From contig RDZG01000078.1 of assembly GCA_004293915.1 (NCBI GenBank), positions 1 through 34,120 on the forward strand: a DNA stretch of 34,120 bases. Reading direction: 5' to 3'. The notes beneath the pieces were generated by a model that saw only the letters and a list, made by a program, of their open reading frames with translations, ran no database searches and was not told the origin of the DNA. This stretch comes from Bacteroidota bacterium. GTDB lineage: Bacteria; Bacteroidota; Bacteroidia; Cytophagales; UBA9547. Positions 5,808 to 23,385 of the stretch are shown here, piece by piece; positions within the stretch are counted from its first letter, which is position 1, and each line of letters opens with the position of its first letter. The position numbers and the translations under genes were made by a program.

Positions 5808-5810
5808 TAA

Positions 5811-6163: not shown

Positions 6164-6203
6164 TGAATGCTCAAATAATCAGATAATGCTATTTTAATTT
6201 TGG

Positions 6204-6245
6204 CAAATATTTTTCTTATAGCATTTAATTATTAAGAAAATATTG
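6204..6245. repeat. AT-rich hairpin between small genes in the nuo cluster
   Basis: CAAATATTTTTCTTA (6204-6218) pairs with TAAGAAAATATTG (6233-6245) with small bulges. It sits in the 92-base gap between the 37-codon gene and the lipoprotein gene. Its right arm belongs to a second, diverged copy of the 3' end of the 37-codon gene. It could weaken read-through into the next gene or be a scar of a duplication. Confidence 0.3.
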
Positions 6246-6255
6246 TAAAATAAAT

Positions 6256-6741
6256 ATGAAAAAAGAGTACATATATATATTGATTTTGAGTGTGTTAATT
6301 AGCTGTGCTCCAAGTATTGATGGAAATACATTTTGTGATACAAAAAATAATAATACACCAACACTAAATGCAACAGTAATGAAATTATTTATAACTGAAA
6401 AAACCATGAACAAAAGTGTGTTTTCTAGCTCAGTTACAGGTTTTAATAGAGATAGTTTTAGATTATTTGCTGATAAAGTAGAAATTACATTTGATACAAA
6501 TAGTTTAAATAAAGACACAATAAAAACCCAGCAATGGTATGTTTTATATAATTTGAAATCGAATAATTTAATATTAAAATACAATAAAAACACAAAAGAT
6601 ACTATTTCTATTCGTTCGACATATGAAAGAAATATTTGTCAAAATGTGGTTTATGAAAACCATATTTTAGATAGTATATTTGTAAAAAATAAAAAAATAG
6701 ATATCGAAAGTAGTACCAAAACTTATATTATTAAACGTTAA
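6256..6741 (+). CDS. Predicted small lipoprotein of unknown function embedded in the nuo cluster
   Basis: The 161-residue protein starts with a lysine pair and a hydrophobic run ending in LISC, a good lipobox with the lipidated cysteine at residue 17. The mature part is hydrophilic, threonine- and asparagine-rich, has two more cysteines (C27 and one in RNICQN), and is probably beta-rich. I recognise no family. The stop TAA overlaps the nuoH ATG by one base (TAATG), so it is probably translated with nuoH. Nothing in it resembles a complex I subunit or accessory factor. It could be a taxon-specific envelope protein that landed in the operon. Confidence 0.6.
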   Translation: MKKEYIYILILSVLISCAPSIDGNTFCDTKNNNTPTLNATVMKLFITEKTMNKSVFSSSVTGFNRDSFRLFADKVEITFDTNSLNKDTIKTQQWYVLYNLKSNNLILKYNKNTKDTISIRSTYERNICQNVVYENHILDSIFVKNKKIDIESSTKTYIIKR

Positions 6742-7769
6742 TGGAAATCACCGTAATAATTGTAAAATTTGCTTTAATAGCCATTATTTTTGGCATCAGT
6801 TTGCTCACAGCTATGTATAGCACCTATGCCGAACGTAAGTTTGCATCGTTTTTTCAAGACCGAATTGGTCCAGACAGAGCTGGTCCGTGGGGAATTTTTC
6901 AGCCACTTGCCGATGGTGGAAAATTGTTTTTTAAAGAAGAAATTATACCAACCAATGCCAATTTGTTTTTATTTGTGCTTGGTCCATCGTTGGCAATGCT
7001 TACGGCTTGTATGACAAGTGCCGTTATTCCATGGGGAACTTATTTAACTATTTTCGATACCCAAGTTGATTTGCAAGTTGCTGATATTAATGTTGGCATT
7101 CTATATGTTTTTGGTGTAGTTTCTTTAGGAGTTTATGGCATCATGGTTGGTGGCTGGGCATCAAACAATAAATTTGCACTTTTGGGAGCCATAAGAGCCG
7201 CTTCGCAAAATATTAGTTACGAAATTGCAATGGGTTTATCAATTATTGCTGTTGTGATGGTAACAGGCTCGCTCTCACTCAAAGATATGGCAGTTTGGCA
7301 AGGTCAAAATGCGTGGATGGTTGTTTATCAGCCACTTGGCTTTTTGATATTCTTGATTTGCTCTTTTGCCGAAACCAACCGAGCACCATTTGATTTGCCC
7401 GAATGCGAAACCGAACTTGTTGGCGGGTATCATACAGAATATAGTTCAATGAAATTAGGATTTTTCTTATTTGCAGAATATATAAATATGTTTATTTCTT
7501 CTGCCATGCTTTCAACACTTTATTTTGGGGGATATACATTCCCATTTATGAACGACTTAGGTTTATCACAAAATATGGTTAGTATTTTAGGGTTGGTGTT
7601 CTTACTTGGCAAAATTTTCTTTTTTATATTCTTATTTATGTGGGTGCGTTGGACAATTCCACGTTTTCGTTACGATCAATTGATGCGTTTGGGATGGCAA
7701 GTTTTGATTCCACTCGCCATAATTAATATTGTATTAACAGGTATAGCCATAACTTTCTTTGGAAGTTAG
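6741..7769 (+). CDS. nuoH: NADH-quinone oxidoreductase subunit H
   Basis: This 342-residue multi-pass membrane protein forms part of the quinone-binding chamber of complex I. Hallmarks are YAERKFASFFQDRIGPDRAGP near residue 28, the following PLADGGKLFFKEE, and FAETNRAPFDLPECETELVGG near residue 210, whose acidic loop lies close to the quinone site. About eight membrane helices are visible and the length is normal for the family. It overlaps the upstream lipoprotein stop by one base and is followed 3 bases later by the second pair of tiny membrane genes. Confidence 0.96.
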   Translation: MEITVIIVKFALIAIIFGISLLTAMYSTYAERKFASFFQDRIGPDRAGPWGIFQPLADGGKLFFKEEIIPTNANLFLFVLGPSLAMLTACMTSAVIPWGTYLTIFDTQVDLQVADINVGILYVFGVVSLGVYGIMVGGWASNNKFALLGAIRAASQNISYEIAMGLSIIAVVMVTGSLSLKDMAVWQGQNAWMVVYQPLGFLIFLICSFAETNRAPFDLPECETELVGGYHTEYSSMKLGFFLFAEYINMFISSAMLSTLYFGGYTFPFMNDLGLSQNMVSILGLVFLLGKIFFFIFLFMWVRWTIPRFRYDQLMRLGWQVLIPLAIINIVLTGIAITFFGS

Positions 7770-7772
7770 AAA

Positions 7773-8030
7773 ATGAAAACCGAATTTTACAAAGAAAAAA
7801 TTAGAACAGATACCGAATTATTAAAGTTATTCTTTAGTGCTGAGTTAGTATTGTTGGGTTTGTTTGCAACTTTGCTAATGAAAGATAACTTGGGAGAAAA
7901 TCAAACTCACGGATATCTGTTAGTAATATTAGTAATGGTGATTACACTAAATGGATACACATGTTATTCATTTTATTTAAAAATTAATGATACTTTATCA
8001 AAATTAGAAAATGGAAACAATAACATATAA
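7773..8030 (+). CDS. Small two-helix membrane protein in the nuo cluster (pair 2, first gene)
   Basis: This 85-residue protein has a charged head (MKTEFYKEKIRTDTELLK), a hydrophobic segment at about 19-36, a loop (MKDNLGENQTHG), a second segment at about 48-68, and a tail (KINDTLSKLENGNNNI). Function is unknown. Start is 3 bases after the nuoH stop, the same spacing as the pair-1 gene after nuoG, and its 3' end overlaps the next gene by 20 bases. Its layout parallels 5811-6053, although identity by eye is low. It is not a recognised complex I subunit. Confidence 0.65.
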   Translation: MKTEFYKEKIRTDTELLKLFFSAELVLLGLFATLLMKDNLGENQTHGYLLVILVMVITLNGYTCYSFYLKINDTLSKLENGNNNI

Positions 8031-8130
8031 AGAAATATTGCAATTTTCAGGAGCATTATTTTTACTAGTTTATTCAACATGGTTTTTCTATAAAATGATG
8101 TTAGTAACAAAAAAAATGACAAAAATATAA
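8011..8130 (+). CDS. 39-residue single-helix membrane peptide (pair 2, second gene)
   Basis: The frame begins at an ATG inside the end of the preceding gene (20-base overlap, different frame) and stops at 8128-8130. It has a polar start (METITYKEILQ), one hydrophobic helix (FSGALFLLVYSTWFFY) and a basic tail (KMMLVTKKMTKI). nuoI starts 18 bases later. The counterpart in pair 1 has 37 residues and the same topology. Confidence 0.5.
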   Translation: METITYKEILQFSGALFLLVYSTWFFYKMMLVTKKMTKI

Positions 8131-8148
8131 AATACTATATATCACAAA

Positions 8149-8757
8149 ATGCAATCACTAACTAATCGAGCAAAGCCAGTAGCACCAAAAGAGATGACGT
8201 TTATGGAACGCATCTATTTGCCTGCCATTTTAAAAGGTATGACAGTAACAATCAAACACTTTTTTATGAAAAAAGTAACGATTCGTTATCCAGAAATCAA
8301 GAAAATGTTTTCGAAAACATATAGAGGACTGCATGTGCTCAAAAAAGATGAACAAGGCAGAGAACGTTGCACTGCCTGCGGACTTTGTGCCTTATCATGT
8401 CCAGCAGAAGCCATAACCATGACTGCAGCCGAACGCACTCCAGCAGAAAAACACCTTTATAAAGAAGAAAAATATGCTGCTGTATATGAAATAAATATGT
8501 TGCGTTGCATTTTTTGTGGATTGTGCGAAGAAGCCTGCCCAAAAGAAGCCATATTTTTGACAAGTGAAGAAATTGCCCCCGCAAATTTCGATAGAGGAGA
8601 TTTTATTTATGGAAAAGACAAGTTAGTGGAAAAAGTTCACGGACCACAAGGTAAAGTGCGTGGTGGTGGACCTTTGGATAAAAATTATTACCATGGTAAT
8701 GCACAAGTTACTTCTGCATTTCAAAATTTAGAGTTATCAAATAATTTAAAAGTATAA
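8149..8757 (+). CDS. nuoI: NADH-quinone oxidoreductase subunit I (two 4Fe-4S clusters)
   Basis: This 202-residue subunit of the complex I peripheral arm carries the two 4Fe-4S clusters (N6a and N6b) that relay electrons toward the quinone. The two ferredoxin-type motifs are CTACGLCALSCPAEAI near residue 74 and CIFCGLCEEACPKEAI near 119. An amphipathic N-terminal stretch of about 60 residues docks it to the membrane arm in homologues. The C-terminal end is slightly longer than E. coli NuoI (180 residues). nuoJ follows after 15 bases, so the two are almost certainly cotranscribed. Confidence 0.95.
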   Translation: MQSLTNRAKPVAPKEMTFMERIYLPAILKGMTVTIKHFFMKKVTIRYPEIKKMFSKTYRGLHVLKKDEQGRERCTACGLCALSCPAEAITMTAAERTPAEKHLYKEEKYAAVYEINMLRCIFCGLCEEACPKEAIFLTSEEIAPANFDRGDFIYGKDKLVEKVHGPQGKVRGGGPLDKNYYHGNAQVTSAFQNLELSNNLKV

Positions 8758-8772
8758 AAAGTATATAATCGT

Positions 8773-9279
8773 ATGATGCAAAATGTATTTTATTTTCTCG
8801 TTTTTTTAGGACTATTGAGTGCAATTATGGTCATATTTTCTAAAAACCCAATCCATAGCGTATTATATTTAATCATTACGTTTTTTGCCATTGCGGGGCA
8901 TTATATATTATTAAATGCACAGTTTTTGGCTGTGGTGCATATTATTGTGTATGCAGGAGCAATTATGGTCTTGTTTTTGTTTGTGATTATGTTTTTGAAT
9001 CTAAATACCGAAACCGAACCACAACAATCTACTTTAGTAAAAATTGCAGGTGTAATTGCAGGTGGTTCGTTGTTCTTAGTGTTTTTAGCAGCTTTAAAAG
9101 ATTCAGCAATGATTACCCAAGCCAACCCAAATATAGAAATTGGTTTGGTAAAAAATTTAGGTAAAAAACTATTTGACGATTATCTACTTCCTTTCGAATT
9201 GGTTTCTATTTTGTTTTTAGCAGCTCTTATTGGAGCCGTAATCCTTGGAAAAAAAGAAGAATTGGTGGCAGAGAAATAG
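8773..9279 (+). CDS. nuoJ: NADH-quinone oxidoreductase subunit J
   Basis: The 168-residue protein has five hydrophobic segments, as in NuoJ of the complex I membrane arm. The family signature NPIHSVLYLIITFFAIAGHYILL and the following VHIIVYAGAIMVLFLFVIMFLN helix, with its kinked YAGAIMVLF motif, are clear. ATGATG gives two possible starts one codon apart; I took the first. It is the last complex I gene here. nuoK, which normally overlaps or closely follows nuoJ, is absent, and the next 500 bases hold only a decayed MNT gene. Confidence 0.93.
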   Translation: MMQNVFYFLVFLGLLSAIMVIFSKNPIHSVLYLIITFFAIAGHYILLNAQFLAVVHIIVYAGAIMVLFLFVIMFLNLNTETEPQQSTLVKIAGVIAGGSLFLVFLAALKDSAMITQANPNIEIGLVKNLGKKLFDDYLLPFELVSILFLAALIGAVILGKKEELVAEK

Positions 9280-9361
9280 TGTGTTATTATTTGTTTATAA
9301 ATGTTTTCTTCTTAAGTATCTTGTAATTTGATAGTTTAAAAAACATATTTTTAAAAATCTT

Positions 9362-9659
9362 ATGAAAACAATTGAAGAGATAAAAAAAAGCTGATATCTG
9401 TAAAAATAAGTTAAAAAATGATTATAAAGTAGTTTCAATAGAAGTTTTTGGATCTTATGTAAGAAACGAACAAACCGAGAATAGCGACTTAGATTTGGTT
9501 GTAGTTTTTGACGAAAGTAATTACCCAAAATATAGCTAGTTTTTAAAACTTGAAAATTATTTATTGCAATTAGTGAATTTAAAAATCGATTTAGTTACCA
9601 AAGATTGTGTAAAACCATTTTTGAAAAAATATATTTTTAATGAAGCTGTTTTGGTATGA
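9362..9659 (+). pseudogene. Decayed MNT-domain nucleotidyltransferase (antitoxin-like)
   Basis: Reading across one frameshift in the A-rich start (about 9385-9392) gives an MNT-domain protein with VFGSYVRNEQTENSDLDLVV near the middle and LKIDLVTKDCVKPF further on. The core G-S and D-x-D residues and the third aspartate are preserved. A TAG within YPKYS-stop-FLKLENYL at about 9537-9539 and the frameshift break the gene. It ends in a TGA at 9657-9659. It resembles MntA-type antitoxins such as the intact gene at 19457-19753. No intact HEPN partner follows; only very short frames do. It lies where nuoK would be expected. Confidence 0.72.
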
Positions 9660-9782
9660 AAAGAACAGAAATTCAGTTTTTGGCGGGCATTATAAGTATA
9701 CAAACTTTGGTTTAATAATATATTTGTTATAGGATATAATTATAATGGAAATAGATAATTATAAACGAATATCCAAAAGAAT

Positions 9783-10307
9783 ATGAAGCAACTTCTTATC
9801 CTAATTTTTTCAATTTATTTAATTTCCTGCAAATCGGATTCGAGTGCGTTGTTGAATGCAAAAAAATACGATGGACCACTCATTCAGGCTACAAATGTGC
9901 ATACACTTTTTAGCGATTCGGCTTTGGTAAAAGTCGAATTAAAAGCTCCTTTGCAATACGAATACGAAAATGGCGACAGAGTTTTTCCGCGAGGAGTGAT
10001 TATGTATTTTTTAAATCCGGATGGTTCAGTAAACAATAGTTTGAAAGCAAATCATGGAAAATTTTATAAAGCCACAGGCATTTATACAGGTACAGGCGAT
10101 GTAATAATTAGAGATTCGGTAGCTAACAAAAAAATGAATACCGAAAAATTGCATTGGAATCCGGCAACCAAAAAAGTTTATACTGATAAATTTGTCCGTA
10201 TCGAAACAGCAACAGAAGTGCTAACAGGCAATGGATTGGATGCTTCTCAAGATTTCAAATATTATAAAATCAAAAATCCTACTGGTGTATTTTCAATTAA
10301 TCAATAA
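9783..10307 (+). CDS. lptC: LptC-like lipoprotein, LPS transport
   Basis: The 174-residue protein starts with a lipoprotein signal ending in LISC (cysteine at residue 16). LptC bridges the LptB2FG transporter to the periplasmic LptA bridge that carries lipopolysaccharide to the outer membrane. The OstA-like beta-jellyroll is visible in repeated strands such as LKAPLQYEYENGDRVFPRG, GTGDVIIRDS, KKMNTEKLHWNP and LTGNGLDAS. E. coli LptC is held by a transmembrane helix; lipoprotein versions are usual in Bacteroidota. The next gene begins about 110 bases downstream behind its own promoter. Confidence 0.85.
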   Translation: MKQLLILIFSIYLISCKSDSSALLNAKKYDGPLIQATNVHTLFSDSALVKVELKAPLQYEYENGDRVFPRGVIMYFLNPDGSVNNSLKANHGKFYKATGIYTGTGDVIIRDSVANKKMNTEKLHWNPATKKVYTDKFVRIETATEVLTGNGLDASQDFKYYKIKNPTGVFSINQ

Positions 10308-10365
10308 AAAAGTCAACTATAACAATTGAGAATTTTTGTTTAAAAAATCATATCTCATTAATTGC

Positions 10366-10395
10366 TTTGGTGGTTTAATAATTTCGCTAATTTTG
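10366..10395 (+). promoter_or_regulatory. Bacteroidota-type promoter for DUF1573-yajC-ybbR-coaE
   Basis: TTTG (10366-10369) and TAATTTTG (10388-10395) match the -33 TTTG and -7 TAnnTTTG elements with an 18-base spacer. They lie 23 bases upstream of the DUF1573 ATG. This is the best promoter match seen in the window. Confidence 0.55.
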
Positions 10396-10418
10396 CACAA
10401 AAATAATTTTAGTAAATA

Positions 10419-10853
10419 ATGAAAAAGTTAGTAATTCTATTTTCGATTTTAATAATAAGCGTTTGTTGTTCCAAAAAAGAATCTACGGCTGTAGATGGAA
10501 CTGGAGCTATATCAAAAATTGTTTTTGATGAACCAGAATATAATTTTGGAAAAATAAAACAAGGTAATGTGGTGCCGCATACTTTCACATTTAAAAACAC
10601 TGGAGAAAATGATTTAATAATTTCAAACGCTACTGCTTCGTGTGGTTGCACCATTCCAGAATGGCCCAAAGAACCAATAAAACCAGGAGCATCGGGAGAA
10701 ATAAAAGTACAATTTAATAGCACAGGCAAATCAGGAGTTCAAAACAAAGTAGTGGCTGTAACTGCAAACACAGATCCGAATACAACAAATGTAGTTTTGA
10801 AAGGCGAAGTAGAAGTTCCTACGGTTGTAGATTCAACAAAAATCAAAAAGTAA
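10419..10853 (+). CDS. DUF1573-domain secreted or lipoprotein
   Basis: The 144-residue protein has an N-terminal export signal ending in a Cys-Cys-Ser, so it is probably lipidated, although the lipobox is not perfect. It is a single Ig-like DUF1573 domain with the usual core: F-x-F-G-K-I-x-x-G, FTFKNTGENDLII and ASCGCTIPEWP. The CGC is a conserved feature of the family whose role is unknown. It is the first gene before yajC, ybbR and coaE, an order I know from other Bacteroidota. Promoter elements lie directly upstream. Confidence 0.88.
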   Translation: MKKLVILFSILIISVCCSKKESTAVDGTGAISKIVFDEPEYNFGKIKQGNVVPHTFTFKNTGENDLIISNATASCGCTIPEWPKEPIKPGASGEIKVQFNSTGKSGVQNKVVAVTANTDPNTTNVVLKGEVEVPTVVDSTKIKK

Positions 10854-10867
10854 ACCAAATATAAATC

Positions 10868-11176
10868 ATGTTTTTAATAACTATTTTACAAGCTCAAGGA
10901 GCAAACTTATATGCCAATTTAATTTTTATTGGTATAATTATTGTAGTATTTTATTTTTTCATGTTGCGTCCACAACAGAAAAAACAAAAAGACCAAAAAA
11001 ACTTTCGTGAAAACTTAAAAGTTGGCGATACCGTAATTACAATTGGCGGTGCACACGGTAAAATCGTTGAAATTTCGGCAGAAAGTGTAGTTTTAGATGT
11101 AGATAGAGGCGTAAAAATCAAATTTGAAAAATCATCAATTTCAGATGAACTTTCAAAAAAATTGGCAAAAGCATAA
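10868..11176 (+). CDS. yajC: Preprotein translocase subunit YajC
   Basis: The 102-residue protein has one N-terminal membrane helix, then the YajC signature YFFMLRPQQKKQKDQ and the cytoplasmic domain with LKVGDTVITIGGAHGKI. YajC associates with SecDF and the SecYEG translocon in the inner membrane. Length and motif order are typical. It starts 14 bases after the DUF1573 gene and is followed 48 bases later by the YbbR-like gene. Confidence 0.95.
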   Translation: MFLITILQAQGANLYANLIFIGIIIVVFYFFMLRPQQKKQKDQKNFRENLKVGDTVITIGGAHGKIVEISAESVVLDVDRGVKIKFEKSSISDELSKKLAKA

Positions 11177-11224
11177 TTAAAAAACTGCTTTTTCAATCGG
11201 TTTTAAATTTATCCAAAAGAAAAA

Positions 11225-11923
11225 ATGGAAAATAAACCAAAAGAAAAAATCAAGAAATCGAAACCAAAAATGTTTAGTACTAAAATGCTAAACATTTTTG
11301 CTTGTTTAGCGATTGCCTTAATTTTTTGGGTCTTTAATGCCTTGAGCCACGACTACAGCACAGTAGTGAAATATCCTGTACGTTTGATTATAGATGCCGA
11401 CAAATACATTTCAAGCGGGAGTTTAAATAAAGATGTGTCGGTGGCAGTTTCGGGTTATGGATGGTCTATTTTGGCACATTCTTTTGGTATCCAAAACCAA
11501 CCTATATTGCTATCTGCCAACGACTTATCATTACAAAAAATAGCTACCGAAGCCACACTTTTGCCCCAACTTCGGAGTATTTTGCCTGATATAAAAATTC
11601 TAAATATTATAGAAGATACCATTAGTTTTGATATTGACCATAGAGAATCAAAACGTGTGTTTTTAACACTTGATAAATCAAAAATTTCGCTTCCGCAAGG
11701 TGCAAAAATCGATGGCTTAGTTCAAATCATTCCAGCTTTTATTATTTGCAACGGAGCCAGAAAAAATATTAACAATTTGCCAGATACCATATCTTTTTCC
11801 TTGCCAAATACTTTTATAGAAAAAAATTATAATGAAGAAGTCGAAATTAATTATAGACCTTCAAGAGAAATCACTTTGGCTTACAATACTGTAAAAGTAA
11901 AATTTGCGATAGCAAAAAAATAG
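11225..11923 (+). CDS. YbbR-like domain membrane-anchored protein
   Basis: The 232-residue protein has a lysine-rich cytoplasmic N terminus, one membrane helix (about residues 22-40, containing ACLAIALIFWVFNAL), and an outside region with YbbR-type beta domains (VKYPVRLIIDADKY, DVSVAVSGYGW and the later IPAFIICNGARKNI). YbbR-domain proteins include CdaR, which regulates the diadenylate cyclase CdaA in Firmicutes. I see no cdaA here and would not transfer that role. It abuts coaE with no gap (stop directly followed by ATG), so the two are likely cotranslated. Confidence 0.78.
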   Translation: MENKPKEKIKKSKPKMFSTKMLNIFACLAIALIFWVFNALSHDYSTVVKYPVRLIIDADKYISSGSLNKDVSVAVSGYGWSILAHSFGIQNQPILLSANDLSLQKIATEATLLPQLRSILPDIKILNIIEDTISFDIDHRESKRVFLTLDKSKISLPQGAKIDGLVQIIPAFIICNGARKNINNLPDTISFSLPNTFIEKNYNEEVEINYRPSREITLAYNTVKVKFAIAKK

Positions 11924-12517
11924 ATGTTAAAAATTGGCATTACAGGCGGAATTGGAAGTGGAAAATCAACCGTTTTGCAAATTTTTTCGCTTTTAGGAGT
12001 TCCCATTTATGATAGCGATTCTCGCTCTCGATGGCTTCAAGAAAACGACAAACAACTTATTTTTGATACAATTTCGCTTTTAGGAAATGATGCGTATTTG
12101 CCTGATAATAAACTAAATAAACCATTTATTGCTCAAAAAATATTTTCTGATAAAACCTTATTAGAAAAATTCAATGGCATTGTTCATCCAAAAGTATTTG
12201 CGGATTCGGAAAAATGGTATACTGAAAATGCCATAAAAAAATATGTAATTAAAGAATCGGCATTGCTTTTTGAGTCTGGGGCATATAAAAATGTAGATAA
12301 AGTAATTGCAGTTGTTGCACCCGAAAAATTACGTATTTCAAGAATTCAAAAAAGAGACATACTTCGCACAGAAACAGAAATCAGAGCCATTATGGCAAAA
12401 CAATGGAACGATGAGCAAAAAATAAAATTGGCTCATTATGTTTTAGAAAATGACGAAACACAATTGCTCATTCCGCAAGTTTTGAAATTGCACGACACTT
12501 TTTTGAAGTCAAACTAA
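11924..12517 (+). CDS. coaE: Dephospho-CoA kinase
   Basis: CoaE phosphorylates the 3'-hydroxyl of dephospho-CoA with ATP, the last step of coenzyme A synthesis. The 197-residue protein opens with the P-loop GITGGIGSGKST at residues 4-15. It then shows the substrate-site motif YDSDSRSRWL, HPKVF in the core, the ALLFESG strand, and RDILRTETEIRAIMAKQW in the lid and C-terminal region. Length is normal (about 200 residues). It follows ybbR directly and ends the DUF1573 operon. Confidence 0.95.
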   Translation: MLKIGITGGIGSGKSTVLQIFSLLGVPIYDSDSRSRWLQENDKQLIFDTISLLGNDAYLPDNKLNKPFIAQKIFSDKTLLEKFNGIVHPKVFADSEKWYTENAIKKYVIKESALLFESGAYKNVDKVIAVVAPEKLRISRIQKRDILRTETEIRAIMAKQWNDEQKIKLAHYVLENDETQLLIPQVLKLHDTFLKSN

Positions 12518-12591
12518 TAATAGTCAAAAAAGAAAAATATGTATATTTGTTTCGAAAATTTTTAATGTAAGCAAGCAATAAAACTATAATT

Positions 12592-13344
12592 TTGAGCAAA
12601 AACATAGTCATCATTCCAACATATAATGAAAAAGAAAACATCGAATTGATGGTTCGAAAAGTTTTTTCTTTGCCCGAAAGTTTTCATTTACTGATTGTGG
12701 ACGATGGTTCGCCTGATGGCACTGCCGAAATTGTTAAATCTTTGCAATTAGAATTTCCAAACCAACTTTTTTTGGAACAACGCAAACAAAAATCTGGACT
12801 AGGCACTGCATATATTCATGGATTTAAGTATGCTTTGCGTAATAAATACGAATATATTTTTGAAATGGATTGCGATTTTTCGCACAATCCAGATGATTTA
12901 ATTAGACTTTTACACACTTGTAAATCAGATGGTTATGATTTGGCTATTGGCTCAAGATATGTCGATGGTGTTGTAAATGTGGTTAATTGGCCCATGAATC
13001 GTTTGTTGATTTCGTATTTTGGTAGTGTATATGCAAAATTTGTAACGGGAATGCCGATTGACGATGGCACAGCTGGATTCAAATGTTATAAAAGTGAAGT
13101 GTTGGAAACCATAAAACTTGATAATGTACGTTTCGTTGGTTATGGATTTCAAATCGAAATGAAATTTAATACTTGGAAATATGGCTTTAAAATAAAAGAA
13201 GTTCCCATAATTTTTAAAGACAGAACAGCAGGCGAAGCCAAAATGAGCAAATCTATCATTGCCGAAGCGTTTTTGGGAATTATAAAACTAAAAATTTATA
13301 GTTTTTTTGAAGGCTATCGAAGAGAAAAACAAACATACGATTGA
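12592..13344 (+). CDS. Polyprenol-phosphate mannosyltransferase-like family 2 glycosyltransferase
   Basis: The 250-residue GT2 enzyme resembles dolichol/polyprenol monophosphate mannose synthases. These transfer a sugar from a nucleotide donor to a polyprenyl phosphate, making a membrane-linked sugar donor. It shows IIPTYNEKENIE at the start, the VDDGSPDGTAEI nucleotide site, the catalytic EMDCDFSHNPDDL stretch (D-x-D type metal site), and FKDRTAGEAKMS near the end, a strong signature of this subgroup. There is no C-terminal membrane domain. The start is a TTG at 12592, because an in-frame stop lies just upstream and no ATG precedes the conserved PTYNE. The sugar is not known. Confidence 0.88.
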   Translation: MSKNIVIIPTYNEKENIELMVRKVFSLPESFHLLIVDDGSPDGTAEIVKSLQLEFPNQLFLEQRKQKSGLGTAYIHGFKYALRNKYEYIFEMDCDFSHNPDDLIRLLHTCKSDGYDLAIGSRYVDGVVNVVNWPMNRLLISYFGSVYAKFVTGMPIDDGTAGFKCYKSEVLETIKLDNVRFVGYGFQIEMKFNTWKYGFKIKEVPIIFKDRTAGEAKMSKSIIAEAFLGIIKLKIYSFFEGYRREKQTYD

Positions 13345-13420
13345 AATAAATGCGTTTTTTTCGTTTTACATATATAAAATCATAAAAATAAATTAATTTT
13401 ACCCTAAAATATATCAAAAA

Positions 13421-13639
13421 ATGAAACTTGTTTTTGGAAAACAAAACTATCAAATCATGCTTTTGGGTTTGGCAGTTTTAATTATTGGATTTGTAACAAT
13501 GACACTCGACAAAGAAGATTATGGCTTTGGATTTTTGGGTTTAACACTCGGACCAATTTTAGTTATGATTGGTTTTGGTATTCAATTTTGGGCAATTTTG
13601 CACAAAGACAAATCCATTGTTTCGCCTGTAAAAAAATAA
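13421..13639 (+). CDS. DUF3098 small two-helix membrane protein
   Basis: The 72-residue protein has two membrane helices separated by a short loop ([20 protein letters not shown]) and ends in a charged tail. It matches my memory of DUF3098, a family usually found directly upstream of uppP in Bacteroidota, as here, with one base between the stop and the next start. Function is unknown; the coupling suggests a link to undecaprenyl phosphate recycling or cell division, by context only. Confidence 0.82.
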
Positions 13640-13640
13640 G

Positions 13641-14423
13641 ATGAGCTATTTAGAAGCCTTTATTTTAGCTTTAATTGAAGGAATTACAGAGTTTTTGCCT
13701 GTTTCCTCAACTGGACATATGATTATTGGCTCTGCCATTTTGGGCATAGAATCTACCGAATTTGTAAAAACTTATACAGTAGCCATTCAGCTTGGAGCAA
13801 TCCTTTCGGTTGTAGTTTTATACTATAAGCGGTTTTTAAAAAATGTTGATTTTTATTTTAAACTAGCCATTTCTGTTGTTCCTACTTTAGTTTTAGGATT
13901 TTTATTAAACGATTTTATTGATAGTTTGCTCGAAAATGTTTGGGTTGTAGCCATTTGTTTGATATTGGGTGGCATAATTTTGCTTTTTGTAGATAAATGG
14001 TTTGCAAAAAATTCAGATGAAAGCGATACTATAACTTATAAAAAAGGCATAATTGTAGGATTTTTTCAATCTTTAGCCATGATTCCTGGTGTATCTCGCT
14101 CGGCTGCTGCCACCATTGGCGGTATGCTTCAAGGCTGGACAAGAAAAAAAGCAGCAGAATTTTCGTTTTTTTTAGCTGTCCCAACGATGTGTGCCGCCAC
14201 AGGTTATAAATTGCTTAAAACCTATAAAAACATACAAACTGAGGATATTTCGTTGTTGATTTTTGGAAATTTCGTAGCATTTGTTGTTGCCATGATTGCC
14301 ATAAAATTTTTTATATCAGTGCTAACTAAATACGGATTTCGTTGGTTTGGTTGGTACAGAATTTGTATTGGCGTTATAATCTTGATTTTTTTATTATTGG
14401 GTTATGATTTAAAAATAGCTTAA
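13641..14423 (+). CDS. uppP: Undecaprenyl-diphosphate phosphatase
   Basis: UppP (BacA) removes one phosphate from undecaprenyl diphosphate so the carrier lipid can be reused for peptidoglycan and O-antigen synthesis; it also gives bacitracin resistance. The 260-residue multi-pass protein has both signature blocks: [17 protein letters not shown] near residues 14-30, with the catalytic glutamate and serines, and [15 protein letters not shown] near residue 150, with the arginine. Length is typical. It is coupled to the DUF3098 gene and is convergent with the AraC-type gene. Confidence 0.95.
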
Positions 14424-14498
14424 CTAAATCTTAACTAGGATTTCATTATTAAAACGACAGATTTATACTTTTAATTGTAAACATTTTTAGCATCAAAT

Positions 14499-15662
14499 TC
14501 AGATAACTGAAGATTTTTTTGCTTTATTTTGTATGTTTTTATCTCTGTATTCGGCTGGAGTAGTATGCATTTTGTATTTGAATATTTTATAAAAATTCGA
14601 TTTGGTGTTGAAGCCGCAATCATAACCTATATTTTCTATTTTCATTTTTTTATCAACATCTTTTTCTAGTATTTTAATTGCATTTCTGATTCTAAATTCG
14701 TTTACAAATTCGTTAAAATTTTGACTTGCCTCATGGTTAATCACTTCTGATAGTTTGTGTAATGAGACATTAAGTCTATAAGCAATGGTCGAAAGTTTTA
14801 ATTCTGGCTCTAGCCAAGGTTTTTCTAACTCAAATAGATGTAATAAACTTTTGTACAATTTTGTAGATTCATCATCAGTTAATTTTGAATGATTAATTTT
14901 TTCATCCATAAATTTTTTAAGTGGCTCTATTTCAGCTTGATAAACTTCAAATTGCTCATTATTAAACACCGCACCATTATTAATACTTTGGTAATAAATA
15001 TAAAAAGTATAAATATTCATGGCAACAGGCAATACTATCAAATCTGAAATTTCATTGCCCATTATCATAGAAATAGGTAAAGCAACAACTGCAATTGCAA
15101 GGCTTAAAAAAAGAAATTCTTTTATAAATTTTAACTTTATAACTTGTAGATTGCTAAAAACTTGTAGGGCAATTTTTTCTGTTTTCAAAACATTTACTAT
15201 ACTGATAATCAAAAAAACAAAGTAATATATTCCTAAAACTAGATTTGAATATAATAAATACCAAACTAGGTCGCTGTAAAAATTATCAACTAATAATCTT
15301 TGCTCAGAAATAGGTAGCGAATAATGATATATTATTACTATTATATACAAAATACTAGGTGCAAAAAGCAGCAAAAGTCTAGGTTTAAAAGTAGAAAGTT
15401 GCCCTAGTAGCATTTTTGTATAAATATATAAAAATGGACCAAGTGATAAAATTGTCATAAACTGAACATGCACCAGCCAAACCCAATTATAGAGTTTATA
15501 ATACATAAGATAATTGGTAAGTGCAGTAATTCCAGGTATTAACAATAAAATTATGAGTACATAAACTGGTAGAGCATTGTTTTTTCTAAATGCCAATAAT
15601 AAACAAAGCAAAAGCTTGGTGCCTATGGTGAAAATAGAAATAATGTCTATAATTTTATCCAT
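14499..15662 (-). CDS. Membrane-spanning AraC-family transcriptional regulator
   Basis: The 387-residue protein has six or seven hydrophobic segments in the first 230 residues and a C-terminal AraC DNA-binding domain of two helix-turn-helix units (IAYRLNVSLHKLSEVINHEA and IENIGYDCGFNTKSNFYKIFKYKMHTTPAEYR). Membrane-anchored AraC proteins of this design are common in Bacteroidota; the signal is unknown. It reads away from hslU's 3' end, with a 276-base gap that contains a perfect palindrome. That palindrome is 48 bases upstream of the start and could be its own operator or hslU's terminator. Confidence 0.85.
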   Translation of the reverse strand: MDKIIDIISIFTIGTKLLLCLLLAFRKNNALPVYVLIILLLIPGITALTNYLMYYKLYNWVWLVHVQFMTILSLGPFLYIYTKMLLGQLSTFKPRLLLLFAPSILYIIVIIYHYSLPISEQRLLVDNFYSDLVWYLLYSNLVLGIYYFVFLIISIVNVLKTEKIALQVFSNLQVIKLKFIKEFLFLSLAIAVVALPISMIMGNEISDLIVLPVAMNIYTFYIYYQSINNGAVFNNEQFEVYQAEIEPLKKFMDEKINHSKLTDDESTKLYKSLLHLFELEKPWLEPELKLSTIAYRLNVSLHKLSEVINHEASQNFNEFVNEFRIRNAIKILEKDVDKKMKIENIGYDCGFNTKSNFYKIFKYKMHTTPAEYRDKNIQNKAKKSSVI

Positions 15663-15709
15663 TATATGTTTTTATACTGCAAATTTAAAAATGTAACTTA
15701 GACAACTTT

Positions 15710-15751
15710 AGCAGTAAGTAAAAATTAAAATTTTAATTTTTACTTACTGCT
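15710..15751. repeat. Perfect 42-bp palindrome
   Basis: Every base of the first 21 pairs with the last 21 without a spacer: arms begin AGCAGTAAGTAAAAATT and end AATTTTTACTTACTGCT. It lies between the 3' end of hslU and the 5' end of the AraC gene, both on the minus strand. No long T run follows on either side, so it is an unusual terminator. An operator dimer site or a small mobile palindrome are alternatives. Confidence 0.85.
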
Positions 15752-15938
15752 TTTAACACAAAATTTGGATAAAGTAAAAAATATGGAATCAAAACTATAA
15801 TTGTGCCTAAAGTTATACATTTATAATATTGTGAAATGTTTTTAATGGTGTGTCCAACTAAAAACAATACAAAGTATCGAAATTGGCAAATTAACTAAGT
15901 AGAAAAGGAAATTCTAATAATAATATCGAATAACACTT

Positions 15939-17387
15939 TTACAAAATATACCTGCTCAAATCTTTGTTTTTTACCAATCCAGAAAGCCTTTTATTTACTA
16001 AATCGGCATCTATTTTTAAAACCGAACCAGGTTTTATGGTATCGGGAATTTCATACAAAAACTCGTTCAAAAGTGTACTCATCACGGTATGCAATCTTCT
16101 GGCTCCAATATTTTCGACCTCCGAATTTACTTCAAAAGCAATTTCGGCAATTTTCTCAATGGCAGAATCTTCAAAACTAATTTCAACACCTTCGGATTCC
16201 ATCAAGGCAAAATATTGTTTTGTTAAGGCATTTTTGGGAGTTTTTAAAATCAAAATAAAATCGGCTTTTGATAAACTTTGTAGCTCTACACGAATCGGAA
16301 ATCTGCCTTGTAATTCGGGAATCAAATCCGATGGTTTTGAAACATGAAACGCTCCAGCAGCTATAAACAAAATATAATCTGTATTCACAACTCCATATTT
16401 TGTGCTTACACTCGAACCTTCAACAATCGGCAATAAATCGCGTTGCACACCTTCTCGGCTCACATCTGGACCCGAACCTTTCGAACTTGAACGAGCAATT
16501 TTATCTATTTCATCTATAAAAATTATACCCGAATTTTCGGTTTTATTAATGGCTTCGATTTTCACATCTTCCATATCGATAAGCTTAGATGCTTCTTCGT
16601 CTAAAAGTATTTTTCGGGCTTCGGCAATAGTAACTTTTCGTTTTTTCTTGTTTTTAGGTAACATTCCCGAAATCATATCTTGAATGCCTTGCATAGAAGA
16701 GTCGTCCATTCCAATGGGACCTACAACACCAACATTTGTCGAAAAATGTTGCGGAACTTCAATATCAACTTTTTTATCTTCTATTTCTCTGTTTTTGAGT
16801 TTTTCTTTAAATTTATCTCTCGTGCGTTGGTTAAGCTCAATGTCTTCTGCCGATGGCTGCTCTTCTTCTGATTTTTTTAAATCAAAACCTTTCAAAACTT
16901 CCATCATATCGACCGATTTTAAATCAACTTCTTTTTTAGAAGATTTTCTTTTGGGTGGATTTGCATTTAATGGAGGAATTAATAAATCCAGAATCAATGC
17001 TTCTACAGCTTCTTCCGCTTTCTGTTTTACTTCTTCGGTTTTGCGTTTTTTAATCATGTGAACAGCTTGTTCAACCAAATCACGCACCATGCTTTCCACA
17101 TCTCTGCCCACATAACCCACTTCGGTAAATTTAGAAGCTTCAACTTTTACAAACGGTGCATCAGCCAGTTTTGCTAATCTGCGGGCAATTTCTGTTTTTC
17201 CAACACCAGTTGCTCCAATCATCAAAATATTATTTGGCATAATTTCTTTTTGCATTTCGGGAGATGCATTAAGTCTTCGCCAACGATTTCGGAGTGCAAT
17301 GGCAACGTTTCGTTTGGCATCGTGCTGACCAATTATGTATTTATCAAGTTCTTCTACTATTTGCCGTGGTGTAAGCGTATCTATCAT
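15939..17387 (-). CDS. hslU: HslU (ClpY), ATPase subunit of the HslUV protease
   Basis: HslU is the AAA+ unfoldase that feeds proteins to the HslV peptidase. With the start at MIDTLTPRQIVEELDKYIIG the protein has 482 residues; an upstream in-frame start would add 11 unlikely residues. Visible are the Walker A GATGVGKT at 58-65, the pore motif GYVGRD at 91-96, a long charged I-domain insertion, the Walker B IIFIDEIDKIA, the GRFPIRVEL region, and the C-terminal LSRYIL tail that docks into HslV. The I domain makes it longer than E. coli HslU (443 residues). hslV is not adjacent, unlike in many bacteria, so it must be elsewhere if present. Confidence 0.95.
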   Translation of the reverse strand: MIDTLTPRQIVEELDKYIIGQHDAKRNVAIALRNRWRRLNASPEMQKEIMPNNILMIGATGVGKTEIARRLAKLADAPFVKVEASKFTEVGYVGRDVESMVRDLVEQAVHMIKKRKTEEVKQKAEEAVEALILDLLIPPLNANPPKRKSSKKEVDLKSVDMMEVLKGFDLKKSEEEQPSAEDIELNQRTRDKFKEKLKNREIEDKKVDIEVPQHFSTNVGVVGPIGMDDSSMQGIQDMISGMLPKNKKKRKVTIAEARKILLDEEASKLIDMEDVKIEAINKTENSGIIFIDEIDKIARSSSKGSGPDVSREGVQRDLLPIVEGSSVSTKYGVVNTDYILFIAAGAFHVSKPSDLIPELQGRFPIRVELQSLSKADFILILKTPKNALTKQYFALMESEGVEISFEDSAIEKIAEIAFEVNSEVENIGARRLHTVMSTLLNEFLYEIPDTIKPGSVLKIDADLVNKRLSGLVKNKDLSRYIL

Positions 17388-17519: not shown

Positions 17520-18527
17520 TTGAAGACCTTAAAAACCCTATTTTATTATTTTTTAATTATTGATTTTCAAAAACTGGTAAATATATTGGGTTGTTATCTC
17601 ACATTTTTTACTAAAAAAACAAACGGAAAGGCTTTGCCTTTTGCTGTATCGATCGAACCAACTACTTCGTGCAATTTGCGTTGTCCGCAGTGTATCAGTG
17701 GGTTGCGAAATTTTACACGACCTGTAGGAATGCTCGATATAGAACTTTATAAAAAAATGATTGACCAAGTTAAAAACCATGTTTTGCATCTTAATTTGTA
17801 TTTTCAAGGCGAACCATATCTCAATCCACAGTTTTTTGAGATGGTAAAATATGCTTCGAGCAATAAAATTTTTGTAATGACATCAACAAATGCTCATTTT
17901 TTAAGTTTAGAAAATGCCTTAAAAACAGTGGAAAGCGGGTTGAATAAACTCATTATTTCGATTGATGGTACTTCGCAAGAAACTTATCAAAAATACAGAA
18001 TTGGTGGCGAACTCGACAAAGTAAAACAAGGTATTGAAAATATAATTGAAGCAAAAAAACAACTAAAAAACAAGCGATTGGCTGTCGTTTTGCAGTTTGT
18101 AATTTTTAAACACAATCAACACGAAATCGAAGAAATTAAGGCTTTTGCCAAAAAACATAAAAACATAGATTTTCAATTAAAAACAGCACAAATATATGAT
18201 TATGAACAAGATACAGATTTTATTCCAACAGAAACTGAATTTGCACGATACAAAAAAAATGCGTTGGGCACGTTTGAATTAAAACATAAAATCGAAAACA
18301 AATGTTGGAAAATGTGGCATTCGGCAGTTATCACTTGGGATGGAACTGTGGTGCCTTGTTGTTTTGATAAAGATGCTAACCATGCGATGGGAAACATCAA
18401 AAACCTTACTTTTAGTGAAATTTGGAAAAGCCAAAACTATAAAAACTTTAGAAATCAATTATTAGAAAATCGCACCGAAATCCAAATGTGCAAAAACTGC
18501 ACAGAAGGTGCTTCGGTTTTTGCATAA
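17520..18527 (+). CDS. Radical SAM protein with SPASM-type C-terminal domain
   Basis: The 335-residue enzyme binds a SAM-cleaving 4Fe-4S cluster through C51, C55 and C58 (CNLRCPQC). The segment IEPTTSCNLRCPQC and the later LNLYFQGEPYLNPQF (glycine-rich SAM-binding strand) are typical. A SPASM region follows with a cysteine near ENKCWKMW, CC in GTVVPCCFDKD, and C-x2-C in MCKNCTEG, likely an auxiliary cluster. The start is TTG at 17520, and the extra 40 residues before the core resemble the N terminus of this Bacteroidota subgroup. The substrate is unknown, and no precursor peptide is evident nearby. Its last codons and 3' flank are duplicated at 19356-19431. Confidence 0.85.
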   Translation: MKTLKTLFYYFLIIDFQKLVNILGCYLTFFTKKTNGKALPFAVSIEPTTSCNLRCPQCISGLRNFTRPVGMLDIELYKKMIDQVKNHVLHLNLYFQGEPYLNPQFFEMVKYASSNKIFVMTSTNAHFLSLENALKTVESGLNKLIISIDGTSQETYQKYRIGGELDKVKQGIENIIEAKKQLKNKRLAVVLQFVIFKHNQHEIEEIKAFAKKHKNIDFQLKTAQIYDYEQDTDFIPTETEFARYKKNALGTFELKHKIENKCWKMWHSAVITWDGTVVPCCFDKDANHAMGNIKNLTFSEIWKSQNYKNFRNQLLENRTEIQMCKNCTEGASVFA

Positions 18528-18585
18528 TATTTTTCAAAATTTAGATTCTGTTTTCAAAATAAATGTTTTAATTGCTCAAAAGATA
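18511..18585 (+). repeat. 75-bp direct repeat, copy 1 (3' end of radical SAM gene)
   Basis: This stretch covers the last codons of the radical SAM gene (SVFA-stop) and 58 bases downstream. It recurs at 19356-19431 with one substitution (C for T) and one extra T in a T run. The two copies bracket the DUF6934-like module. Confidence 0.9.
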
Positions 18586-18628
18586 ATTTTAGAATGTGCC
18601 TTTTTTTACAACAAAAAATATACTTTAA

Positions 18629-19084
18629 ATGAAAAATGAAACATATGAAATATCGCATTTAGAGGGGGATTTGCTATATATGTTTTTTAGTATTGGTAAA
18701 AATGGCATTGTACCAAAAGTAGTCGAGTATCAATGTGTTGATAAAGATGTTTATAACCTGGCTTTTGGCGATTTAGATATAATAAATAATACTGTAAACG
18801 ATAAAATTGTAACAAATAATGGTGATACAATTAAAGTTATTTCATCTGTGATTCAAACTATACCATTATTTTTTAAAATTCACCCAAAAGCTACAGTTTT
18901 GTTTACAGGTAGCAATATTTTACGAACAAAATTATATAATCGAATTTTAAAGATGTATATAAACGATTTTTGTGATTTATATGAGATTAATGGAATTGTT
19001 GAAGGAGAGAAATCGTTTTCAAAATTTGATATTTCAAAAAATTATAATCAATTTAGTATAAAATTAATTAACTATGAAAATTGA
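18629..19084 (+). CDS. DUF6934-like protein
   Basis: The 151-residue soluble protein matches my recollection of DUF6934, a family largely confined to Bacteroidota: a GKNGIVPKVVEYQ strand, YNLAFGDLD, DKIVTNNGDTIKVISSV and VLFTGSNILRTKLYNR. No catalytic motif or membrane segment is visible and the function is unknown. The end overlaps a 46-codon gene by 11 bases in another frame, a toxin-antitoxin-like arrangement. The pair is bracketed by the 75-bp direct repeats, and a HEPN/MNT toxin-antitoxin pair lies next door. The gene has no clear promoter match. Confidence 0.72.
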   Translation: MKNETYEISHLEGDLLYMFFSIGKNGIVPKVVEYQCVDKDVYNLAFGDLDIINNTVNDKIVTNNGDTIKVISSVIQTIPLFFKIHPKATVLFTGSNILRTKLYNRILKMYINDFCDLYEINGIVEGEKSFSKFDISKNYNQFSIKLINYEN

Positions 19085-19214
19085 TTCCAATACATTAGTG
19101 CTTAATCCTAAAGTGCTATTGACTAATTTGAGAAAAAAGCATGGTAACAAAAGCATTTTTCCAGAAAGTGCTGAAGCTGCAAAAAAAATTGCAATGCTAA
19201 TAAAAAAAAATTAG
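19074..19214 (+). CDS. 46-residue basic partner of the DUF6934-like protein
   Basis: The frame starts at an ATG within the end of the DUF6934-like gene (11-base overlap) and ends with TAG at 19212-19214. The product is soluble, lysine-rich (KIDSNTLVLNPKVLLTNLRKK and AAKKIAMLIKKN) and probably mostly helical. I recognise no family. Coupling to the upstream gene suggests they work together; the small size and charge would suit an antitoxin or toxin, but this is inference. Confidence 0.5.
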   Translation: MKIDSNTLVLNPKVLLTNLRKKHGNKSIFPESAEAAKKIAMLIKKN

Positions 19215-19233
19215 CAACAATAAATAATGCTAA

Positions 19234-19332
19234 GTTATCAAAACCATCAAATGATAACATAGTAACAAGTAATTTTTAGCTGATAACAAAAAGCCAAGCT
19301 TCACATGAAACACGTTTGATTTATGTTATCAG
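19234..19332. repeat. Cluster of TGATAAC / GTTATCA inverted motifs
   Basis: The motif occurs as GTTATCA (19234-19240), TGATAAC (19252-19258), TGATAAC (19281-19287) and GTTATCA (19325-19331). The first two can form a hairpin. The last two are part of a 9-bp inverted repeat CTGATAACA/TGTTATCAG enclosing 35 bases. They lie between the 46-codon gene and the second 75-bp repeat copy, where nothing else is coded. They could be a terminator, a repressor site or recombination end sequences. Confidence 0.6.
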
Positions 19333-19355
19333 AAGACTCCAACAAAAAAATAAGA

Positions 19356-19431
19356 CTTTGGTTTTTGCATAATATTTTTTCAAAATTTAGATTCTGTTTT
19401 CAAAATAAATGTTTTAATTGCTCAAAAGATA
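19356..19431 (+). repeat. 75-bp direct repeat, copy 2
   Basis: This is a near-identical copy of 18511-18585, including the end of the radical SAM reading frame and its stop codon, but with no gene body upstream. It sits 25 bases before the MntA-like gene, so it forms the right edge of the DUF6934 module and the left edge of the next toxin-antitoxin pair. Confidence 0.9.
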
Positions 19432-19456: not shown

Positions 19457-19753
19457 ATGCTAGATAAAACAACTATTTTATATCAACTAAATGCTATAAA
19501 GGCAGATTTACATAAATTTGGAGTAACTCAATTGGGCTTATTTGGTTCTTACAGCAATGATACGGCTACCAAAAATAGCGATATCGATGTTTTGATAGAC
19601 TTTGAGCCAACTCAAGAAACCTTTGATAATTTAATGGCTACTTGTGCAATTTTAGAGCAAACTTTTAAGTTAAATAAAGTTGATGTTATTACTAAAAATG
19701 GCTTAAGCAAATACATTTCTCCATATATTTTAAAACAAACTATATATGTATAA
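19457..19753 (+). CDS. MNT-domain nucleotidyltransferase antitoxin (MntA-like)
   Basis: The 98-residue protein is a minimal nucleotidyltransferase. It has GLFGSYS at about 27-33 (G30-S31), the metal-binding pair D42 and D44 in NSDIDVLIDF, and the third aspartate D76 in KVDVITK. MntA-type enzymes in known HEPN/MNT modules silence the toxin by adding AMP groups to it. The next gene encodes the HEPN partner and overlaps by 8 bases, the typical order for this module. A related but decayed gene is at 9362-9659. All core residues are intact here. Confidence 0.88.
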   Translation: MLDKTTILYQLNAIKADLHKFGVTQLGLFGSYSNDTATKNSDIDVLIDFEPTQETFDNLMATCAILEQTFKLNKVDVITKNGLSKYISPYILKQTIYV

Positions 19754-20099
19754 GGAATATAAAGAAGTCTTAAATCATATTTTAGAAGAATGTAATTACC
19801 TACTTTCAGCGATAAATAATGCAAATATTGATAAAGATGTTTATTTAAGAGATGAAACCTTAAAAAGAGCTACAGTTAGAAGTTTAGAAATCATAGGCGA
19901 AGCCACTAAAAAAATTCCTGATGATTTAAAACAAAAAATATCATCTGTAAAATGGAAAGAAATGGCAGGAATGAGAGATAGACTTATTCATGATTATATG
20001 GGTACAAATTATAATATTGTTTGGGATGTTATAAAAAACAAGATTCCAGTATTGAAAAATCAAATAGAATATGCTATTTCTAATAAACTTTTAGATTAA
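19746..20099 (+). CDS. HEPN-domain ribonuclease toxin (HepT-like, DUF86)
   Basis: The 117-residue helical protein carries the RX4H-X-Y active motif as R77-DRLI-H82-D-Y84 in GMRDRLIHDYMG. Other family marks are RATVRSLEIIGEATKKIP and KEMAGMRD. HepT toxins cut RNA, and the tyrosine is the residue AMPylated by MntA in characterised pairs. It overlaps the antitoxin gene by 8 bases. It is the intact toxin of the accessory islet between the radical SAM gene and the M1 peptidase. Confidence 0.9.
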   Translation: MYKEYKEVLNHILEECNYLLSAINNANIDKDVYLRDETLKRATVRSLEIIGEATKKIPDDLKQKISSVKWKEMAGMRDRLIHDYMGTNYNIVWDVIKNKIPVLKNQIEYAISNKLLD

Positions 20100-23023: not shown

Positions 23024-23103
23024 TTTACTGCTTCTTTGGGTAGGTGGAAATTTGCAATCTACTGTGCGTCAAGGTTTCTTTTACCGTAGAAAGTTTGTCG
23101 CTA

Positions 23104-23297
23104 TGGAGCAGGAAGCTTTCCCACACTAGGAATTTGTTCCTGCGTTGTGCAGGAAGCTTTCCCACACTAAGAATTTGTTCTCGCACTAGAGCGGCAAGCT
23201 TTCCCACATCAGGAATTTGTTCCTGCACTAGAGCGGCAAGCTTTCCCATACTAGGAATTTGTTCTCGCACTAGAGCGGCAAGCTTTTCCATACTAGG
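23104..23297. repeat. Tandem repeat, 42-bp period, about 4.5 units
   Basis: The core AAGCTTT recurs at 23113, 23154, 23196, 23238 and 23280, giving spacings of 41, 42, 42 and 42. Each unit has a near-palindrome AGCTTTCC, then GGAATTTGTTCC (itself an inverted repeat), then CACTAGAGCGG. The minus strand reads an open frame through it as a 14-residue repeat (GKLAALVREQI), but the frame has no export signal, and a 42-bp period keeps any frame open, so I treat it as a DNA repeat. The surrounding 22918-23414 region holds no convincing gene. Confidence 0.85.
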
Positions 23298-23385
23298 TTT
23301 TTCATGCTGCTGATAATCGTTCTGTAAGACATAATTGATTAACGCTTACCAAGTTCTCCCCCAAACCCTTTTTATAGTGCGTAAG

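Follow-up and report, generated by a model that had tools for sequence, protein, structure and literature searches.

To our knowledge, the way in which small toxin-antitoxin modules without a recombinase of their own spread between chromosomes is an open question. Integrative elements are found at the 3' ends of tRNA genes and other genes; such insertion rebuilds the end of the gene and leaves the original end on the far side of the insert. In passages of PMC3874152 and PMC3031569 (citing Nobusato 2000 and Furuta 2010), long target duplications are ascribed to restriction-modification systems, with direct repeats 'in the order of 100 bp' and of variable length. In Microcystis, a ParE/ParD-like pair has been reported behind MaOC1, between two 152-bp direct repeats of which the first starts 14 bp after the stop codon (PMC7935541). 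A passage on Helicobacter pylori ELS37 describes a 1,577-bp duplication explained by one homologous and one non-homologous junction of incoming DNA (PMC4615327). Passages from papers that name both long target duplication and toxin-antitoxin systems do not report it for such modules at gene ends, and it may still be in print. Here we analyse the forward strand of contig RDZG01000078.1 (positions 1-34,120, the whole stretch being called the window) from a Bacteroidota genome of 3.85 Mb in 156 contigs (G000). In it, a DUF6934 gene and a 46-codon partner lie between two copies of the 3' end of a radical SAM/SPASM gene. The two genes are probably a mobile toxin-antitoxin-like module. It would have reached its place downstream of the radical SAM gene through insertion with long target duplication, and homologous recombination at the ends of genes would account for its later spread.

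Duplicated gene end at the radical SAM locus

A first-pass annotation, made from the letters alone, had described a near-exact repeat of the end of the radical SAM gene after a DUF6934-like module, with the second copy keeping the gene end and no gene in front. Self-comparison bears out this description. Copy 1 and copy 2 align over 76 columns (E = 2.8e-30) and are 97.4% identical, the differences being one substitution and one T indel; copy 2 ends '...TTTTTGCATAA' with no gene before it. The only open reading frame (ORF) of at least 80 amino acids (aa) between the copies is the DUF6934 gene, whose family is confirmed by Pfam; it is co-directed with its partner and overlaps it at 19074-19084. 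Profile searches gave no match to a recombinase or integrase family for either gene, and no restriction-modification family occurs among their Pfam, PADLOC and NCBIfam matches. The annotation had named the presence of the repeat at many unrelated loci, as a common repeat family, among the findings that would refute it. A search with 90 bases of copy 1 (40 of 164 first-look candidates scored) found two matches in the own genome, which are the two copies themselves, and a genome-wide repeat family was rejected on this result.

The same unit behind polA in a sister species

The unit has a counterpart in G002, a sister species of the same genus, where a DUF6934 gene and a small gene show 78% DNA identity to those of the window over 602 columns. 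There the unit follows polA and not the radical SAM gene, and it sits between copies of polA's own 3' end. The alignment runs from about 10-20 bp before the DUF6934 gene to the stop codon of the small gene, and BLAST aligned nothing outside it. An in-frame stop is present in this DUF6934 gene of G002. The radical SAM gene of G002 has 61% protein identity to that of the window and is followed by other genes. Judged by these two loci, the two-gene unit is mobile in the evolutionary sense, and the reading that the module was inserted at a gene's 3' end with the end duplicated is supported by this second species as well. It is very likely that the 46-codon ORF is a genuine gene, because a protein homologue with 74% identity (34/46) follows the homologous DUF6934 gene in G002.

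Recurrence behind other host genes

For 11 bracketed genes at 10 loci, the flanking repeat includes an end region of a host gene that Pfam confirms, and this host gene differs from locus to locus. On contig C131 of the own genome, the 3' end of an FeS gene occurs three times: once at the gene itself, once beyond a ParE-type pair and once beyond an HTH gene with DUF6934. In G002 there are four copies of the polA 3' end, with two DUF6934 genes and the gene of a 283-aa protein in the spaces between them; the gene after the last copy is weakly similar to BrnT (E 0.0023, below cut-off). In G001, three copies of the polA end surround HicAB, a gene of family DUF4160 and other small genes, and two of the latter lack a Pfam match. 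Genome G167 has two such loci, with three copies of the glnS end and a duplicated end of a dehydrogenase E1 gene, each around DUF6934. The other host genes with repeats around DUF6934 include a PNKP-type gene in G245 (a 177-bp repeat, 100% identical), ppk1 in G084, whose end is duplicated, and an acyltransferase gene in G284, where the repeat lies inside the 3' part of the gene. At three loci it is the 5' end that is duplicated, namely those of 3-hydroxyacyl-CoA dehydrogenase (beside YoeB and DUF6934), WS/DGAT (beside DUF6934) and hisIE (beside a Bro-N/Fic protein). The duplicated segment measures 76 bp at the window and 56-260 bp elsewhere. Even within polA it varies, with about 90, 129 and 260 bp in G002 and 97 and 155 bp in G001.

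The host genes are also carried by relatives, mostly with a single copy of the end (extra polA copies occur in G001 and G002). The flanks differ, and none of these relatives is known as a strain of the same species. When the PNKP-type protein was compared with 41 genomes of its genus, 40 gave some match, and additional matches to its last part were present in G245, G125, G311 and G314. In G195 the PNKP-type gene is in pieces. Synteny beyond the PNKP-type gene was not found in the 1.5-kb flanks of the loci of 19 relatives.

Two further observations come from G002. The 283-aa protein (L067, 7309-8160), which lies between two polA end copies and has no Pfam match over the cut-off, is a possible addiction or defence gene. 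Locus L063 (G002:C18:11000-24000) holds at 3440-12640 a cassette array with about six copies of a repeat of about 125-230 bp and a DUF6934 gene inside. The array looks integron-like, and by eye a Bacteroidota-type promoter seems to lie in its repeat.

The first-pass annotation had likened the arrangement to att sites. Under this explanation a tyrosine recombinase supplied in trans would integrate the modules at an attB in the 3' end of a gene, as islands do at tRNA genes, and insertion at a gene's 3' end with the gene left intact agrees with it. In addition, one repeat copy of the L063 array runs into a fragment weakly resembling the N-terminal domain of phage integrases (E 0.052, below cut-off). 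However, the 11 host-gene segments have a mean longest shared word of 6.85, against 6.82 after shuffling (two-base blocks moved, 20 times per pair), and a common att core was rejected for the segments compared because there was no excess over the shuffles. Some events are at 5' ends (L065, L128, L117), and both module genes lack an integrase-family match. A single att-type integrase is unlikely because the lengths vary, even within polA, and the 11 segments have no common core. The site-specific mechanism is therefore the part of the annotation that found no support, and we regard it as very improbable.

Frequency of bracketing

A gene was counted as bracketed when it was spanned by a direct repeat with copies less than 6 kb apart, a length of 45 bp or more and an identity of 80% or more, low-complexity repeats being excluded. 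DUF6934 matches are present in at least 67 of 291 genomes, and 74 DUF6934 genes entered the count, from which G008 and loci with only 1.5-kb flanks were left out; in six loci two genes were scored apart. Outside family f11, 25 of 48 DUF6934 genes were bracketed. Of 67 control positions in these loci, each moved 3.5 kb away from the gene, 8 were bracketed (Fisher p 5.9e-6, for genes that are not independent, several sharing a locus or a genome). The eight bracketed shifted positions belong to families f1 (2), f13 (2) and f15 (4). A separate scan, which included most loci with 1.5-kb flanks and used no low-complexity filter, found brackets at 21 of 73 loci. Loci L037 and L057 are in neither bracketing count, and the scan showed no bracket at either.

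Genus g56 of f11 (G262, G265, G241 and others) has up to 11 DUF6934 genes per genome, and three of its genomes were examined for brackets. In 20 further stretches, taken from three genomes of f11, no pair of repeats enclosed the centre (0/20). As the unbracketed genus g56 seemed to differ, Ku was sought as a sign of non-homologous end joining. It is carried by all 14 g56 genomes with a DUF6934 match among the matches listed, and by none of the 12 genomes with a bracketed DUF6934 gene in the count. The f11 genomes without Ku are also nearly unbracketed (1/5 genes), and nothing is concluded from this contrast since it is confounded with descent.

The recurrence could also reflect passive hot spots, where any foreign DNA enters with long duplications and toxin-antitoxin modules merely survive, DUF6934 being nothing special. 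This would agree with the other modules found between repeats, which are ParE-type genes, the Bro-N/Fic protein, HicAB, YoeB and the 283-aa protein. It would also agree with a 560-kb sample of the own genome, in which 16 of 293 genes were bracketed, although 13 of these, in L146, L149, L155, L156 and L159, lie at repeats judged by eye to be simple, minisatellite-like or coding. Against it, in the own genome 3 of 15 ParE-family loci had brackets and none of 29 response-regulator loci did, a comparison of two families with small numbers. Loci cut by contig ends were dropped from this comparison (2 of 17 for ParE, 1 of 30 for response regulators, which had 34 matches). The three bracketed ParE loci are the C131 locus and two places also met in the unbiased sample. 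Four repeat loci of the sample were inspected, and toxin-like genes were found in L117 (Bro-N/Fic), L145 (a ParE toxin with a RelB-like partner) and L153 (ParE-like); L115, with a repeat of 43 bp and 81%, has no obvious toxin-like gene. Passive hot spots are, on these counts, an unlikely explanation.

Locus L153 (G000:C66:44001-64000) has at 11975-15973 four copies of a 112-bp intergenic repeat that separate the ParE-like genes and other small genes, and its neighbours appear by eye to be a TolC-like gene and a ribonucleotide reductase gene. Locus L146 (G000:C143:44001-64000) has minisatellite-like repeats, with GAGAATG units and a longer shared part, between genes at 2386-9006. Locus L155 (G000:C21:1-20000) has a 173-bp direct repeat of 95% identity at 1112-1284 and 5759-5931 with two genes between, and this repeat resembles by eye the 3' end of secreted-protein genes.

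Codon differences and origin of the copies

The copies of several host-gene ends differ from the gene mainly at synonymous positions. The synonymous share of differing codons in polA is 10/12 for copy 2 and 6/12 for copy 4 of G002, and 9/12 and 7/9 for the copies of G001. The values are 4/5 for copy 3 and 1/4 for copy 2 of the FeS gene, 7/10 for copy 3 of glnS, 4/8 for the acyltransferase gene, 2/3 for ppk1 and 2/2 for L145. The FeS gene and polA each give two comparisons with one gene; when a single copy is taken for each host gene in each genome, 38 differences are synonymous and 15 non-synonymous, which gives p 3e-13 against neutrality and 6e-8 against a mixed model of a constrained gene with an unconstrained copy, whose expectation of 35% is our own estimate. 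In a check on the choice of copy, with only the one nearest to the gene, the numbers are 28 and 14 (p 6e-9 for neutrality, 3e-5 for the mixed model). Because the polA copies differ mostly by synonymous changes, one of them appears to have come from another functional allele. Transfer of such an allele is well supported by codon comparison at polA and only suggested at the other host genes.

The G001 polA copies differ from their own gene at 12 of 99 bases, and polA differs among the three species at 11-13, so the divergence of these copies can reflect transfer between lineages and provides no clock. Copy 2 of G002 polA has 8 differences from its own gene. The annotation had called the event at the window recent. 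The single substitution and single indel between the window copies favour this, and the polA case of G001 speaks against reading age from divergence.

Under another explanation there was no transfer. Tandem duplication of gene end with module at the locus itself, or slippage, would have produced the repeat, which then decayed. Direct repeats can originate locally, and a purely local origin is possible at the PNKP-type gene, with its identical copies, and at the window. In addition, copy 2 of the FeS gene, copy 4 of G002 polA and the acyltransferase copy resemble relaxed copies. However, in two species of the genus the DUF6934 unit follows two different genes, and differences that are mainly synonymous, as in copy 2 of G002 polA, both G001 copies, copy 3 of the FeS gene and copy 3 of glnS, are unexpected for an unconstrained copy. 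Local duplication without transfer is distinctly unlikely.

Proposed route of spread

Insertion with long target duplication, followed by homologous recombination, is favoured on the direct evidence of the duplication itself, the unit behind different genes in two species, the enrichment of brackets at DUF6934, the arrays of modules and gene ends, and the synonymous divergence at polA. Long direct repeats of the target, variable in length, flank the insert, as in insertion with long target duplication; the insert is not a restriction-modification system, as it was when such insertion was first described. In a first step, an illegitimate insertion at a new gene end would duplicate about 50-260 bp. 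It would keep the radical SAM gene whole, with the module next to it and the displaced copy of the gene's end beyond. Gene ends may be favoured because the duplication leaves the gene intact. In a second step, homologous recombination would carry the module from strain to strain, its homology arm being either the flanking gene or the repeats themselves. Such recombination would import the gene end of the donor, could stack new modules beside the gene, and would not require an integrase. As a more tentative extension, toxin-antitoxin-like modules across a large Bacteroidota order, represented in this analysis by DUF6934 with its partner, might be integrase-free cassettes that use the ends of core genes as homology arms, each copy admitting the next module, with arrays behind polA, glnS and ppk1.

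Several observations count against this account. A strain-level empty site was not found among the relatives, and the polA contig of G000 ends 287 bp after the gene. The annotation had held that relatives with an identical module and no repeat would speak against insertion. This is partly the case, as 23 of the 48 DUF6934 genes outside f11 are unbracketed and inside f11 only 1 of 26 is bracketed (0 of 51 shifted controls), with all 21 genes of g56 unbracketed; these are not the identical module. Some of the brackets counted are hairpin-bearing intergenic repeats (L126, L131), that of L063 is the repeat of the integron-like array, and that of L009 is short and weak (45 bp, 82%). The window has 17 duplicated coding bases, in which the sole difference is non-synonymous (0/1), and the transfer signal is therefore not seen there. 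Without polA, the nearest copies give 9 synonymous and 9 non-synonymous differences (p 0.03 for neutrality, 0.14 for the mixed model). As the synonymous signal is largely that of polA, the probability given to the favoured explanation was slightly lowered and that of local duplication slightly raised. The distal polA copies of G001 have 9 and 10 differences in 99 from G000 polA and 12 and 12 from their own gene, which places them only slightly nearer to G000 and is too weak for assigning the donor side.

Possible function of the DUF6934 unit

From layout and company only, we infer that DUF6934 and its partner may be a toxin-antitoxin pair of type II or VII; two adjacent, co-directed and overlapping genes agree with such a pair. 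Each of the seven DUF6934 genes in this comparison, from six loci, has a short ORF of 46-54 aa behind it. Apart from the G002 homologue, the short ORFs compared have 19-41% identity to the partner of the window, and because of this low identity the distant ones may not be the same gene. The 46-aa partner has no Pfam, NCBIfam or PADLOC match. In comparisons of the unit with toxin and antitoxin families, PADLOC gave no match and NCBIfam only a chance-level one (E 0.021). The DUF6934 structure model is a confident one, and its best PDB matches are GNAT acetyltransferases, at a weak level (Foldseek E 0.022, Z 6.6), and the toxins AtaT and GmvT are among these weak fold matches. Because a Z of such size is common by chance, a GNAT-like toxin is no more than a lead from the model. 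No clear structural relative of DUF6934 was found within the fold-comparison listing, families outside it not being excluded. No paper with the word DUF6934 turned up in the literature library searched. The two genes are offered as a candidate new toxin-antitoxin family.

Other features of the locus

The features of the locus are listed in Table 1. The MntA/HepT-like pair (19457-20099) directly after copy 2, and the recurrence of the pattern elsewhere, go beyond the first-pass annotation; by Pfam, a peptidase M1 gene is next after the pair. The hairpin lies outside the part that aligns with G002, since that alignment stops at the small gene. As to an integron-cassette attC site, the hairpin precedes copy 2, and Rfam gave no family at gathering score and one chance-level match. 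Farther along the window, 23025-23313 is a tandem repeat with units of about 42 bp, open in both directions.

Table 1. Features at and beside the duplicated end of the radical SAM gene (window coordinates)
Feature	Position	Strand	Basis
Radical SAM/SPASM gene, 3' end duplicated	17520..18527	+	PF13186 E 7.9e-20, PF04055 E 1.6e-15; ORF; start codon uncertain
Repeat copy 1 (17 coding bases from the end of the gene, then 58 bp of flank)	18511..18585	+	Self-comparison
DUF6934 gene, 151 aa	18629..19084	+	PF22028 E 2.5e-37; structure model with mean pLDDT 88; weak GNAT-like fold matches
Partner gene, 46 aa, overlapping the DUF6934 end	19074..19214	+	Homologue 74% identical in G002, equivalent position
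Imperfect hairpin between module and copy 2, possible terminator	19280..19332	+	Fold z -2.05; 7/200 shuffles as good
Repeat copy 2, displaced gene end	19356..19431	+	Self-comparison
MntA-like nucleotidyltransferase, directly after copy 2	19457..19753	+	PF01909 E 1.1e-12; NF047752 E 5e-10 (below cut-off); PADLOC PDC-S09 E 1.1e-29
HepT-like protein	19746..20099	+	PF01934 E 7.5e-26; NF047751 E 1.4e-11 (below cut-off)

Comparison with known systems

Similar modules behind other housekeeping genes in related bacteria suggest a route of movement without an integrase. The duplicated gene ends are a readable record of it: every event is marked by such ends, which may bring along alleles of the donor and are countable in any genome. 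With integrative elements, the locus shares the restored gene end and the displaced end beyond the insert; unlike them, the module has no integrase-family match and the duplicated segments have no common core. The restriction-modification systems, in the passages that treat their long target duplications, are likewise compact addiction-type units that appear to move with no known mobile element and have variable direct repeats. The present case differs from them in having gene ends as targets, several modules stacked behind one gene, and synonymous divergence of the copies. In H. pylori ELS37, a similar mechanism leaving a direct duplication has been proposed, but for a restriction gene and a conjugative element of about 50 kb, and as a single case. 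The Microcystis MaOC1 locus resembles the window in having a toxin-antitoxin(-like) pair directly behind a gene and between direct repeats, which are identical there. The Microcystis repeats begin after the stop codon, carry an inverted repeat and duplicate no coding sequence, whereas at the window the last codons of the radical SAM gene are themselves part of the repeat.

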